A stretch of DNA of 49,422 bases, from positions 1 to 49,422 of the forward strand of contig NZ_AOHX01000033.1 in NCBI RefSeq assembly GCF_000337735.1, read 5' to 3'. The position numbers and the translations under genes were made by a program. This DNA is from Natronorubrum sulfidifaciens JCM 14089 (GTDB lineage: Archaea > Halobacteriota > Halobacteria > Halobacteriales > Natrialbaceae). Below, piece by piece: positions 26,817 to 32,151 of the stretch. The first letter of the stretch is position 1. Each line of letters starts with the position of its first letter. The notes beneath the pieces are model-generated. The model did no database searches. It saw only the letters and a program-made list of their open reading frames with translations, and was not told the DNA's origin.

Positions 26817-27686
26817 ATGCACTCGATCGAGGAGAAACGCGTCTACGGCGATCGTGCGGGAGCCATCGAGGCCTACGTCTCGAGTTCGATCGGCGTCGTC
26901 CGCGTCCGTGTTGCCGGCGACACCGTCGGCGAGTTCGGTCTCTGTGACCGCTGTACCGCCCGCGACATCGCAGCGACCGAGAGAGCGGTTGCGGTCGCAA
27001 CCGACGAGGATGTCCGGCTGTTGGTGCCATCGGCCGACGATGACGAGTCGACAGCTGACGACCCGGCGATCGTCGAAACCGGCTTCGGCCCCGCAGTCGC
27101 TGTCGGTGCCGACGACGCAGGGCTGCTGGCAGCGAGCCCCGACGGCGGTATCGCTCGGCTGGAAGGGGAGTTGACGGCCGCCGACGGCGACTGGAACACG
27201 CTCGAGTCCGACGGCATCGGGACGGTTCGGGCGATCGACCGCGACCTCATCGGCACCGATAGCGGTGTCTACCGTGTCCACGACGGTGGACTCGACCACG
27301 CCGGTCTCACGGCCGTCCGGGATGTCTCCGCGGCGGGCGTCCCGCTCGCTGCGACCGCCGACGGCCTCTACAAACTCGGCAACGGCTGGATGGAGATCCT
27401 CGAGGGGTCCTTTGAGGTCGTCGCTGCGGACCCACACACCGACCCGGGACGGCTTACGCGCGCTCACGCGGTCTCCGGAGAAACGGTCTACGCCTACAGC
27501 GAGGACGGCTGGCAGGTGTACGACCGCTCGAGTGAACCCATCGTCGGCATCGGCTACGGCGAGACGTGCTATGCCGTCACCGAACGGGGCACGTTCTGCT
27601 CGGCCACGCCGGACGACGACACCGGCCAGTGGCGGTCACGAACGCTCGGGATCGGAGACGTGACGGGACTCGCTGTGTCGTGGTAG
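26817..27686 (+). CDS. HVO_0234-like beta-propeller protein
   Basis: 289 residues with repeated 'DAGLLAASPDGGIARLEG', 'DSGVYRVHDGGLDHAG' and 'YSEDGWQVYDRSSEP' units, each a four-stranded blade of about 40-45 residues, giving six or seven blades. The haloarchaeal family is named after Haloferax HVO_0234, itself of unknown function. No signal peptide, so cytosolic. Divergent from glmM by 82 nt. Assignment is by recalled pattern and synteny, not search. Confidence 0.75.
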   Translation: MHSIEEKRVYGDRAGAIEAYVSSSIGVVRVRVAGDTVGEFGLCDRCTARDIAATERAVAVATDEDVRLLVPSADDDESTADDPAIVETGFGPAVAVGADDAGLLAASPDGGIARLEGELTAADGDWNTLESDGIGTVRAIDRDLIGTDSGVYRVHDGGLDHAGLTAVRDVSAAGVPLAATADGLYKLGNGWMEILEGSFEVVAADPHTDPGRLTRAHAVSGETVYAYSEDGWQVYDRSSEPIVGIGYGETCYAVTERGTFCSATPDDDTGQWRSRTLGIGDVTGLAVSW

Positions 27687-27772
27687 GCCGCCTCGAGTGC
27701 CGACGTGGGCGACGACTGGCACCTGTGTCGGTGCCGGACAGTTTAACTATCGTGAATTCGTTCGCTCCGAAC

Positions 27773-28303
27773 ATGAACGAACTTCCACGACGTAAACTCC
27801 TCGCCGTCACCGGGACTGCCCTGACCGGTGCCGTCGCCGGCTGTTCCGGCAGCGACGACGATCCGGACGACTCCACCGAGGCCGACGACCCGGATGCCGG
27901 TGACGAGGCCGACCCCGAACCGAGCGAAACGGACAGTTCGACCGGCGTCGCGGGCACCGTACTCGGTGATGTCATCGTCGACAACTCGGGCGAGACCGAA
28001 CACACGGTCGATGTCCTCGTCGAGTTCGATCGCGAGATCGAAGCCTGGTCGACCGAGACGCTCGAGGCAAACGAGGACGTGACCCTCGAGCGGAACTGGC
28101 CGACCGATCCGGGCCAGTTTCGCGTGGTCGCCCGCCTCGATCAGGGCGAGCCCGTCGAGATCACGCCCGCCCGGTGGAACGACCCCGACTGTCTCAATCT
28201 CTACGTTCGAATCGGTCGAGAGGGGACACTGACGTTCCTGAGTGACACCAGCGGTGGCCCCTGTGGTGACGGCGACGCCGATATCGACGACGCCGAGGCG
28301 TAA
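27773..28303 (+). CDS. Acidic lipoprotein, beta-sandwich type
   Basis: 176 residues from ATG at 27773 (MNELPRRKLLAVTGTALTGA), with RR signal and lipobox AVAGC. An acidic linker (DPDDSTEADDPDAGDEADPE) precedes a compact domain: GDVIVDNSGETEHTVDVLVE, 'WPTDPGQFRVVARLDQGEP', 'PDCLNLYVRIGREGTLTF' and 'GGPCGDGD'. Two cysteines may pair. It matches the broken lipoprotein at 3403-3818 in 'WP..PGQF...A.L' and 'DC'. A GTTTAACT element 30 nt upstream supports the start. Confidence 0.78.
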   Translation: MNELPRRKLLAVTGTALTGAVAGCSGSDDDPDDSTEADDPDAGDEADPEPSETDSSTGVAGTVLGDVIVDNSGETEHTVDVLVEFDREIEAWSTETLEANEDVTLERNWPTDPGQFRVVARLDQGEPVEITPARWNDPDCLNLYVRIGREGTLTFLSDTSGGPCGDGDADIDDAEA

Positions 28304-28365
28304 TCGCTCGAGCCACCACCACGACACTGCGAGTCACTCACGGTGTGCGCGAGAACGAAAACGGG

Positions 28366-28371
28366 TTTTAT
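28366..28371 (+). promoter_or_regulatory. TATA box of prs
   Basis: TTTTAT, centred 25.5 nt before the ATG at 28394. Confidence 0.6.
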
Positions 28372-28393
28372 CCTTCGTCCAGTCCACTCGAGT

Positions 28394-29248
28394 ATGACCA
28401 CGATCGTCAGCGGTGCTGACTCACAGACGCTTGCCGCTGCGCTTGCCCGTGAACTCGACGTTTCGCTCGCCACTGCCGAGTACAACCGGTTTCCCGACGG
28501 CGAACTGCTGGCTGCTGCGCCCGACTTCGACGACGACCGCGCCATCATCGTCGCTTCGACCGTCTCGAGCGACGCCCACATGGAACTGCTCCAGTTGCAG
28601 GATGCCGTCCGCGAAGCCGGTGCCGAAGAGGTCGTCACCATCCTCCCGTACATGGGCTACGGCCGGCAGGACAAGGCGTTCGAGGCGGGCCACCCGATCT
28701 CCGCCCGTGCGGTCGCCCGTGCTATCTCGACCGGCGCGGATCGTGTGCTGACCGTCACGCCCCACGAAGAAGCAGTGTGTGAGTTCTTCGAACCGACGGC
28801 GACCGCCGTCGATGCGGCCGGCCGCCTCGCCGAACCGCTGCCAGACGACCTCGAGGACCCCGTCTTCCTCTCGCCCGACGCGGGCGCGATCGAACTCGCC
28901 GAGACGGTTCGTGACGCCTACGGCGACGGCGAGACGGACTACTTCGAGAAGAAACGCCACTCCGGCACCGACGTCGAGATCACCCCGAGCGATGTCGACG
29001 TGGCCGGCCGCGACGTCGTCGTCGCGGACGACATCATCGCGACCGGGTCGACGATGAGTGAGTCCGTCGCCGTCCTGCAAGAGCGTGGCGTCGGCCGCGT
29101 GTTCCTCACCTGCGTTCATCCGCTGCTCGCCGACAACGCAGTGACGAAACTCTCTCGAGCCGGTGTCGAGGCGATCTACGGCACGGATACGATCGAACGG
29201 CCGATGAGCGACGTCTCGGTCGCACCGTCGATCGCCGAACACCTCTAA
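28394..29248 (+). CDS. prs: Ribose-phosphate pyrophosphokinase
   Basis: 284 residues, within the archaeal (class III-like) PRPP synthase length. It makes PRPP from ribose-5-phosphate and ATP for purine, pyrimidine and histidine synthesis. 'EYNRFPDGELLAAAPDF', ATP-binding 'LPYMGYGRQDKAFEAGHPIS', PRPP loop VVVADDIIATGSTMSE and C-terminal YGTDTIERPMSDVSV match. TTTTAT 26 nt upstream argues for ATG 28394 over the upstream start. Confidence 0.95.
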   Translation: MTTIVSGADSQTLAAALARELDVSLATAEYNRFPDGELLAAAPDFDDDRAIIVASTVSSDAHMELLQLQDAVREAGAEEVVTILPYMGYGRQDKAFEAGHPISARAVARAISTGADRVLTVTPHEEAVCEFFEPTATAVDAAGRLAEPLPDDLEDPVFLSPDAGAIELAETVRDAYGDGETDYFEKKRHSGTDVEITPSDVDVAGRDVVVADDIIATGSTMSESVAVLQERGVGRVFLTCVHPLLADNAVTKLSRAGVEAIYGTDTIERPMSDVSVAPSIAEHL

Positions 29249-29406
29249 ACGACCGCGACGCGGCGGCGCTCGAGTGGGTGTAACTGTTAAGTCGCTTCAC
29301 GTGACATTCTCACGCAGAGACGATTCGGTCCGGGCCAATGGGTACCTGCTGGTGGACTCGAGTAACCGGCCGTCGCCCGTGGGGGCAATCGAGGGAGTGA
29401 GACCTG

Positions 29407-29958
29407 ATGCACGGAATCATCCACAAAACACTCGAGGAGTATGTCATCGCAAAGACCGACGAGGAGACGTGGGACTCGATCGTCGACCGCGCCGACATCG
29501 AGCCAACGCTGTATCTTCCCGTCTCGTCGTACGACGACGCCGAAATCGAGGCCGTCCTCGAGACGCTCTCGTCGCTGGCCGTCCAAAAACGCCGGCAGAT
29601 CGAACGCGATTTCGGGCGAGCGCTCGCCCCCGAACTCCTGTCGACGTTCGCCGCCCACGTTCGCGACGATGGGGATCTGTTCGCCGTGCTTGAACGCCTC
29701 GAGTCGATCGTCGAGAGCGTCGACACGACGACGAACGCGAACGCAGTGCCAACCGTTTCGGGGACTCGAGAGTCGCCTGACTGCGTTCGTGTGACCTACC
29801 GAACCCACCGGGAGCCGTGTTACTGTGGGGTCGCACAGGGGATTCTCGAGGGGATGGCCGATACGTTCGAGACCGAGGCGACCGTCACCGAAACGGCGTG
29901 TGTCGCCGACGGCGACGAGACGTGTGTGTTTCGCGTGGAACGCGTGGAACGAGTGTAA
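29407..29958 (+). CDS. H-NOX-like / V4R-type small sensor protein without the usual haem histidine
   Basis: 183 residues. The N-terminal half (MHGIIHKTLEEYVIAKTDEE, 'YLPVSSYDDAEIEAVLETLS', RDFGRALAPELL) is the H-NOX fold. The C-terminal half has Y131-R-T133-H-R135, matching the H-NOX YxSxR haem motif with Ser replaced by Thr. V102 falls where the proximal His102 belongs; the alignment is by eye. The segment CYCGVAQGILEGMADTF and 'TETACVADGDETC' (Cys138, 140, 165, 173) reads like the V4R domain, which shares the fold and can bind metal by cysteine. So the ligand is uncertain: haem by another residue, zinc, or a lipid-like small molecule. No fused output domain and no neighbour kinase. It starts 159 nt after prs, likely its own unit. 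Confidence 0.72.
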   Translation: MHGIIHKTLEEYVIAKTDEETWDSIVDRADIEPTLYLPVSSYDDAEIEAVLETLSSLAVQKRRQIERDFGRALAPELLSTFAAHVRDDGDLFAVLERLESIVESVDTTTNANAVPTVSGTRESPDCVRVTYRTHREPCYCGVAQGILEGMADTFETEATVTETACVADGDETCVFRVERVERV

Positions 29959-30012: not shown

Positions 30013-32151
30013 TTATCGTCGTCGACCGAGCAGCGCAATCGCGAGTACCACTGCGAGCGCGACGACGCCGGCGACGCCGCCGAAGCCGGGCATCGACTCG
30101 AGGCCTCCGAGCACGCCACCGACGGTGACCGTCGTCGACTGCCCGCCGGCGACGATCTCGTAGCGTCCGTCCTCGCTGAACTGGAGGTCGACCTCGACAG
30201 TGCCGGTTTCGCCGGGTGCGAGCGCGATCGGCTGTCCGCTGACGGTCTCCGCGGCGGTTCGGAACTCGAGTGTGCCCGCTGCCGGATACTCGTCGCTCGT
30301 CGTCACCGTCGCCGTCGCCGTCACCGACTCGCCGGGGTCGACGCTGTCGGGGCTGACCTGTAGCTCGGTGACGGTCAAACTCGGTGCCGACCGAACGACG
30401 ACAGTCAGTCGATCCGAGCCGATCCGGACGTCGTGGATACCGGGTTCCATCGGCGTCCACGACAGCGTCTCGTTCACCCGTGCACCGCCCTCGAGGTGGG
30501 TCTGTGTGTGCGCCATGATTTTCCCGTCAACCTGTAGCGTCGCATCCGCGGTGCCGGCTCGAGTGTCGACGTTCTCGACCGTGACTGGAACCGTGACGCG
30601 CTCGCCGGCCGGCACCGCCAACACGCCACGGTCGGTCGCGCTGTCTGCGGTTTGCGTATCGAGACTACCGATGTCGGCGCGATCCCAGCGCTCCCACGGT
30701 TGGTCGCTAACCCTGATCGAGTCCACCCCAACTCCGTACGCGATGGTCGCCCGCGGCTGGTCGAATGCGGCCCGGTGTTCGAAGCGGTTCCACGCCTCCG
30801 GCGTCTCGTCTGTGCGGGTGTATCGATCGGCACGGTCTCGAACGGTCGGTCCGCCCGCAGCCTCGAGCGCCTCGAGGAACTCGGCCTCGCTCACCCGCTC
30901 GTCGCGAGCGTTCAGCGTCCGGAACACGTCGTCGAGGCTTCGGTCGCCCTCGGTCGCGAGCCGGAGCTGTCGATCCAGGTCGCCGTACACCAGCGCCCCT
31001 TTCAGGTAGTCCGCGTTGCTGTCGCCCCAGGTCGACGGCTCGGTGAGGACGGCGTCCGACGCGGGCGACTCCGCACCACGCTCGAGTGAGCGACGGAACT
31101 CACGGAACGTGATCAGCTCCTGTTCGTACGCGAGCAGGGCCGCGTAGTACTCCGCTTGCGCTTCGACGAGCCATCTGCTATCGCTTGCAGTCCCGACGTC
31201 TGGGTTGGCAAATCGCTGTCTGACGTGGACGTACTCGTGGAGCCAGACGTTCGTCGCCGTCTCGAGCGGTGCGTCGGCGACGACCCACGCGTCGCTGGGG
31301 CCGTACTGCATCCCGCGTGACCCCCAGTCGACGTCGCTCGGCACGGCGACCATGACAGCCTCGGTAGCGCTCGAGCCCACGTCGAGACGCCCGCTTGCGG
31401 CCTCGAGGCTGTCGAGGATCTCGGTCGGTCGCTCTCGAAGGTCGGCGGCCTCGAGCACGACCAGTCTGATCCGTTCGCCGTCGACGACGCGTTCGTGTTC
31501 GGTCACCGCCCCAAAGACGGCCAGCTCCGTGCCGGCTGCGCCGGGGCCGTCGACGGTGACCGTTTCCTCGATACCGATCGGGTCGCTGGTCGCCGTCCGA
31601 TAAGAGAGGCCCACGGTGGGGACCTGAACCACGCCCCACTCGCCGGTCTCGAGGAAGGCGTAGCCGCCCTCGCCGTCGCTTGTTGGTGCCGTCGCCGCCT
31701 CTGTTTCGGCGACGGGCTGGGCCGCGTGGCCGTCGATCGCCCCTGTTCGGTTCGCCGGCATGGTAAACCGAACAGTCGGCGACTCGGTCGTCTCGTCCCA
31801 CCGGTACGTTCCTCGATCGGTCGCCTCGAAGCCCGCAGCGGTGTGGACCTCGGCTTCCGACTCGAGGTCGATCTCGAGGGCGGTCATCGACTCCGGCACG
31901 TCGAACGTCATCTCGGTTTCGAACGTCCCCGGTTGTGCCGGGAGCTGTCGGAGCGTCGTCGTCCGCTCGAGAACGTCGTTCGTGCTGGACAGGCTGGCTG
32001 TCGACCCGCTGTTCACGCTGGGAACGCTCGCGGCGTCGCCATCGGCCGTGTCAGTCTCGGGAGCTATCTGCGACCCGCCGGCACCGGCGACACCCGCAGG
32101 GAGTGCGGTGAGCAGTAATACGACGAGCACGACGGCGACTCGAGTGGTCAC
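30013..32151 (-). CDS. Secreted HExxH metallopeptidase-like protein with PGF-CTERM anchor
   Basis: 712 residues. Signal peptide MTTRVAVVLVVLLLTALPAG, then a beta-rich N-terminal domain to about 240. HEYVH at 305-309 with 'WLVEAQAEYYA' about 20 residues on (E330) is a gluzincin zinc site, as in M1/M61-like peptidases. A helical domain follows to about 460 ('DDVFRTLNARDERVSEAEFL'). After it come two CARDB/Ig-like beta modules (about 490-680: 'GERVTVPVTVENVDTRAG', 'DPGESVTATATVTTSDEYPA'). It ends PGFGGVAGVVALAVVLAIAL plus GRRR-like basics, a PGF-CTERM tail for archaeosortase processing and lipid anchoring. Substrate unknown; cell surface. Confidence 0.82.
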   Translation of the reverse strand: MTTRVAVVLVVLLLTALPAGVAGAGGSQIAPETDTADGDAASVPSVNSGSTASLSSTNDVLERTTTLRQLPAQPGTFETEMTFDVPESMTALEIDLESEAEVHTAAGFEATDRGTYRWDETTESPTVRFTMPANRTGAIDGHAAQPVAETEAATAPTSDGEGGYAFLETGEWGVVQVPTVGLSYRTATSDPIGIEETVTVDGPGAAGTELAVFGAVTEHERVVDGERIRLVVLEAADLRERPTEILDSLEAASGRLDVGSSATEAVMVAVPSDVDWGSRGMQYGPSDAWVVADAPLETATNVWLHEYVHVRQRFANPDVGTASDSRWLVEAQAEYYAALLAYEQELITFREFRRSLERGAESPASDAVLTEPSTWGDSNADYLKGALVYGDLDRQLRLATEGDRSLDDVFRTLNARDERVSEAEFLEALEAAGGPTVRDRADRYTRTDETPEAWNRFEHRAAFDQPRATIAYGVGVDSIRVSDQPWERWDRADIGSLDTQTADSATDRGVLAVPAGERVTVPVTVENVDTRAGTADATLQVDGKIMAHTQTHLEGGARVNETLSWTPMEPGIHDVRIGSDRLTVVVRSAPSLTVTELQVSPDSVDPGESVTATATVTTSDEYPAAGTLEFRTAAETVSGQPIALAPGETGTVEVDLQFSEDGRYEIVAGGQSTTVTVGGVLGGLESMPGFGGVAGVVALAVVLAIALLGRRR

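Follow-up and report, generated by a model that had tools for sequence, protein, structure and literature searches.

A haloarchaeal clade of H-NOX-fold proteins without the proximal haem histidine, and a putative zinc/cysteine redox switch in Natronorubrum sulfidifaciens

Haem-based H-NOX gas sensors require a proximal histidine that ligates the haem. Among 598 H-NOX sequences related to the Vibrio cholerae protein this histidine is absolutely conserved (PMC7108781). Haem-free V. cholerae H-NOX undergoes a reversible response when the cysteines of its zinc site are oxidized (PMC7108781), and Caulobacter H-NOX is activated by cysteine oxidation and not by NO (PMC12329717). In the same survey, haem-free signalling was observed only with a protein that is also able to bind haem (PMC7108781). 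In Shewanella oneidensis H-NOX the cysteine ligands of the zinc are C139, C164 and C172 (PMC7108781). In soluble guanylate cyclase (sGC), the alpha H-NOX domain is haem-free and has an N-terminal extension that blocks the pocket (PMC8196705). Here we describe a protein of Natronorubrum sulfidifaciens JCM 14089, encoded in a window of 49,422 nucleotides (the whole stretch of DNA that was analysed, from contig NZ_AOHX01000033.1), in which the proximal histidine is absent and valine is found at its position (Table 1). It is a member of a large, vertically maintained clade whose proteins have lost the histidine and retained the propionate clamp and the cysteine site. Our search of the mostly open-access literature found no report of such a His-less haloarchaeal H-NOX clade.

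Table 1 Features of the His-less H-NOX locus (coordinates are those of the window; So, S. oneidensis H-NOX)
Feature	Position	Strand	Basis or occurrence
prs, ribose-phosphate pyrophosphokinase; fixed upstream neighbour	28343..29248	+	
Putative own promoter TGTAACTGTTAAGT (BRE/TATA-like), about 115 nt 5' of the ATG	29279..29292	+	motif comparison
His-less H-NOX-fold protein P0001	29407..29958	+	183 aa, single domain
His6	29422..29424	+	95% in His-less clade; Leu/Phe in His-bearing group
His84	29656..29658	+	94% in His-less clade, about 51% in His-bearing group
Val102 codon, at the proximal haem His position (So His103)	29710..29712	+	alignment; His in 0/80 clade members
Pro115, conserved proximal-side Pro of H-NOX	29749..29751	+	76/76 prs-linked copies
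Y131-x-T133-x-R135, haem-propionate clamp (YxSxR with Thr)	29797..29811	+	alignment
Cys138, in a 2-residue insert of a subclade	29818..29820	+	4/76 prs-linked copies
Cys140, aligned with So zinc ligand Cys139	29824..29826	+	alignment
Glu162, where So fourth zinc ligand His161 lies	29890..29892	+	alignment
Cys165, aligned with So zinc ligand Cys164	29899..29901	+	alignment
Cys173, aligned with So zinc ligand Cys172	29923..29925	+	alignment
Convergent secreted protein, CARDB domain and HEYVH (HExxH-type) motif; usual downstream neighbour	30013..32151	-	

By descent and fold the protein is a member of the H-NOX/HNOB superfamily. The Pfam HNOB profile matches residues 2-161 with an E-value of 1.7e-24 and 87 bits, well over the cut-off of 25.5, and the nearest solved sequences are Shewanella H-NOX proteins. 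The AlphaFold2 model, for which an alignment of 101 haloarchaeal rows served as input, has a mean pLDDT of 93.2. The top Foldseek structures for this model are the H-NOX proteins of S. oneidensis and Nostoc (TM 0.88-0.89), and the best 46 rows are all H-NOX or sGC beta. The reading frame is open for just two codons upstream of Met1. An initial annotation made from the letters alone had described a stand-alone archaeal H-NOX-fold protein, which the HNOB match, the model (TM 0.89) and the single domain bear out; the open reading frame, its length and the residues named there (V102, Y131, T133, R135, C138, C140, C165, C173 and H84) were all found as described. Searches with defence-system profiles and Rfam gave no match.

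The same annotation had called the cysteines V4R-like. V4R and MetOD1 domains share with our protein a related fold and a C-terminal cysteine cluster (PMC5847659), but its full-length match is HNOB, while the V4R and MetOD1 profiles match the C-terminal cysteine region alone (residues 135-178; MetOD1 E-value 1.7e-6) and V4R, with 29.4 bits and an E-value of 8.6e-7, stays below its Pfam cut-off of 31. The four cysteines are indeed present; only three of them are conserved, however, and these occupy the zinc-ligand positions of H-NOX proper, so that no V4R explanation is needed. The link to V4R is further weakened because the model lies far nearer to H-NOX (TM 0.89) than to the V4R-like TRAPPC3 (TM about 0.5).

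For the analysis of position 102, homologues were gathered at family level (125 genomes) and at class level (391 genomes), and 110 haloarchaeal rows were aligned with two solved Shewanella H-NOX sequences. The proximal His103 of S. oneidensis aligns with V102, as had been supposed from the sequence, and the helix that carries this residue (98-109) has no His, Cys, Met or Tyr. Histidine at 102 occurs in none of the 80 rows of the His-less clade, compared with all 30 of the remaining haloarchaeal H-NOX rows. Among the 76 rows linked to prs, the residue is Tyr (38), Ala (12), Thr (11), Val (9), Arg (2), Ser (2), Leu (1) or Ile (1), and four more rows without detectable prs likewise lack the histidine and are placed inside the clade. 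A sporadic mutation is ruled out by the agreement of 80 relatives, and an alignment slip by the lack of a histidine in or near that helix: neither the alignment, nor the model, nor any member of the clade puts a histidine at the proximal site. By weighted entropy, position 102 ranks first in the His-bearing rows and 131st of 183 in the His-less clade; the constraint on this position is relaxed.

In the maximum-likelihood tree the 80 His-less rows form one side of a single branch with a support of 100/100 and a length of 0.67. Their hosts belong to the Natrialbaceae and one further haloarchaeal family. H-NOX proteins from other classes of Halobacteriota have the proximal histidine wherever their sequences cover this stretch. 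Descent of the clade from a His-bearing haloarchaeal H-NOX is likely, although not proven, because the root of the tree is not fixed by a safely close outgroup. When GTDB genomes were scanned with two patterns derived from the clade, relatives turned up in Halobacteria only. The searches as a whole covered haloarchaea well and bacteria hardly, and other His-less H-NOX groups may thus exist. Two divergent His-less relatives from outside the main sample, in the MAGs QS_8_69_26 (L169) and QS_1_68_20 (L170), have Tyr and Phe at 102, respectively, and in the former the C-terminal cysteine pair is seemingly missing from the aligned part. A shortened HNOB relative that consists of the C-terminal half only (L043/L200; G030, genus g11), with Phe at 102 and located away from prs, is a separate remnant.

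The Y131-x-T133-x-R135 motif, noted earlier for its YxSxR numbering, is confirmed by the alignment as the propionate clamp. As YxS/TxR, it is retained by 74 of the 80 clade members, among them all 10 that have no cysteine triad. Ranked by weighted entropy over 183 positions of the clade, Tyr131 stands at 15, Pro115 at 19, C173 at 24 and Arg135 at 34. Since the clamp persists even where the triad is lost, two readings that centre on the pocket stay alive. According to the first, which we consider rather unlikely, haem or another porphyrin would be held by the clamp and by pocket packing without the proximal histidine. The iron might be unligated or bound to water, or the tyrosine might be its ligand in the half or so of the clade that has Tyr102; the protein might sense haem or porphyrin or sit permanently in a state resembling the NO-bound, His-released one. 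The better conservation of clamp and Pro115 than of the cysteine triad is consistent with such a pocket, and a structure of the S. oneidensis H103G variant in the Fe(II)CO state exists (2kil). Tyr102 points the same way: it occurs in 40 of the 80 rows, and the three lineages that branch earliest have it throughout (17 rows). However, the rows without tyrosine vary freely at position 102 (A, T, V, R, S, L, I), the N. sulfidifaciens protein has Val102 in a helix without any possible ligand, and most losses of R135 fall in the Tyr102 lineages, contrary to the prediction for a Tyr-haem site.

Tyrosine is able to ligate haem in other proteins, and the step from histidine to tyrosine is therefore a lead. 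On the tree, Tyr102 requires only five label changes. Its apparent loss on several occasions speaks against such a step, as do the R135 losses in Tyr lineages; the 17 rows of the earliest-branching lineages that carry it are present-day sequences. One could imagine, although we think it improbable, that the clade began when tyrosine took the place of the haem histidine. The product would have been an H-NOX with Tyr-associated haem or porphyrin, sensing haem, porphyrin or oxidation instead of NO; lineages of the Natronorubrum type would then have lost the tyrosine and come to rely on a cysteine switch and the clamp alone. If true, such a history would line up, within one fold, the natural steps that lead from His-haem to haem-free signalling.

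Of the 80 clade members, 70 have the complete set of conserved cysteines, C140, C165 and C173. The triad is gone in the 10 others, which retain the gene, and hence cannot represent a universal function of the clade. C138 was considered as part of a metal site and is ruled out as a clade feature. Compared with the zinc-site H-NOX groups 2 and 3 (PMC7108781), our protein shares the three cysteines and lacks the fourth ligand, His or Gln: it has Glu162, and Glu or Lys prevails at this position in the clade. The resemblance to S. oneidensis H-NOX (SO2144; PDB 4u99, 4u9b, 2kii) extends to the fold (TM 0.89), the YxSxR clamp, the proximal proline and the three zinc-ligand cysteines, while Val102, the threonine in the clamp, the glutamate in place of His161 and the lack of an adjoining histidine kinase set our protein apart.

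We propose that the protein is a pseudo-H-NOX without Fe-His chemistry. The clade probably senses something other than NO on a His-ligated haem. Because the triad is kept and an Fe-His bond is impossible, we tentatively favour, by analogy, a zinc/cysteine redox switch in N. sulfidifaciens like that of haem-free V. cholerae H-NOX. The latter has the same cysteine triad at its zinc site and is a redox sensor without haem in vitro (PMC7108781); in contrast to the haloarchaeal clade, which is genetically without the histidine, it keeps the proximal histidine and can bind haem. The protein would act as a stand-alone cytosolic unit which has permanently lost the Fe-His bond and retained the fold, the clamp, the proximal proline and the triad. 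In this species the input would be the oxidation of the putative zinc/cysteine site C140-C165-C173, which would move the proximal subdomain relative to the distal one. Such a shift, like that reported for haem-free V. cholerae H-NOX, could alter how the protein binds a partner whose gene lies elsewhere, and the retained clamp suggests a pocket that may still accommodate a carboxylate-bearing molecule. Glu162 in place of the fourth zinc ligand, the 10 members without the triad, in which the clamp is nevertheless kept, and the lack of an adjoining partner gene speak against the redox-switch reading. The clade constitutes a natural test of H-NOX signalling through the zinc/cysteine site alone, and it also tests the role of the propionate clamp without Fe-His ligation.

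In the second pocket-centred reading, the pocket would have been adapted to another ligand, carboxylate-bearing or hydrophobic, in a way comparable to V4R regulators or to cinaciguat in haem-free sGC. The retained carboxylate clamp would suit such a ligand, as would the conserved distal residues specific to the clade, in which H6, R67, A74, F81 and A83 became fixed and H84 rose from about half to 94%. Among the Nostoc structures matched by the model is 4iae, with the haem mimic BAY 60-2770 bound. The neighbouring genes, however, point to no ligand and the V4R match is under its cut-off, and we regard this reading as improbable. H84 had also been suggested as a replacement haem ligand. This suggestion is weakened, since His84 occurs together with His102 in about half of the His-bearing relatives and hence did not arise as a replacement.

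The gene has a fixed genomic position: 76 of the 80 His-less genes were seen directly after prs. At every locus where prs and the His-less gene were both detected, the latter follows prs in the same orientation after a gap of 26-543 nt, and it usually converges on the gene for the secreted CARDB protein or on ileS. In the gene-less genomes examined, prs is followed by the identical downstream neighbours and the gene is absent. A BRE/TATA-like motif ending in TTAAGT lies at -77 to -143 from the ATG in 28 of the 55 loci examined, and this motif is absent after prs in all 17 loci without the gene. A functional tie to prs is judged unlikely: a promoter motif of its own precedes the gene in many copies, and other genera have prs but not the gene beside it. 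Pairwise dN/dS values of 0.10-0.29 among Natronorubrum copies indicate purifying selection, and with the gene intact across the genus they rule out a pseudogene in N. sulfidifaciens. In the family, 79 genomes have the His-less gene, 29 the His-bearing kind and 28 both; 51 genomes have the His-less gene without a His-bearing paralogue, so that the His-less protein is not dependent on that partner. The gene looks selected, independently transcribed, stand-alone and not dependent on the paralogue.

These data also bear on the idea of a non-sensing scaffold or partner-binding domain, possibly paired with another protein, as in the haem-free alpha H-NOX of sGC. The sGC alpha domain is a known pseudo-H-NOX, in human a H-NOX fold without the haem histidine (PMC8196705), and our clade has likewise lost the sensory histidine and kept the fold. 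Several positions conserved in the His-bearing rows are released at or around helix F, namely L92, N97, L105 and R106 along with H102, as a scaffold might allow. The sGC alpha domain is, however, fused in a cyclase subunit, whereas our protein has no HNOBA, coiled-coil or cyclase fusion, no other output domain and no N-terminal extension that could block the pocket. Together with the 51 genomes that have no His-bearing paralogue, and with a clamp and a cysteine triad that would not be expected to persist in a scaffold, this makes the idea decidedly doubtful.

The genome of N. sulfidifaciens has one H-NOX of each kind. The His-bearing paralogue (L031) is about 33% identical, with the same fold family and the same motifs; unlike the His-less protein, which follows prs, it has His102, is unlinked to prs and is followed by a chemotaxis-receptor gene with an MCP signalling domain. 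No partner gene was seen adjoining the His-less gene. Tandem H-NOX genes occur at three loci (L063, L064 and L065, in G410, G403 and G330). Both members carry the haem histidine, which rules them out as His/His-less pairs, and at L063 the pair is followed, after about 180 nt, by a candidate chemotaxis-receptor gene. In one genome (G080, genus g17; L106/L198) the prs-linked His-less gene seems to be broken into several frames, a probable pseudogene or assembly error, and in another (G043; L130/L131) prs is split into two overlapping frames, which suggests a frameshift or sequencing error. Upstream of prs in the window, a lipoprotein-like open reading frame without a Pfam match (27656-28303) lies between the HVO_0234 beta-propeller gene and prs, an arrangement found in many, not all, relatives.
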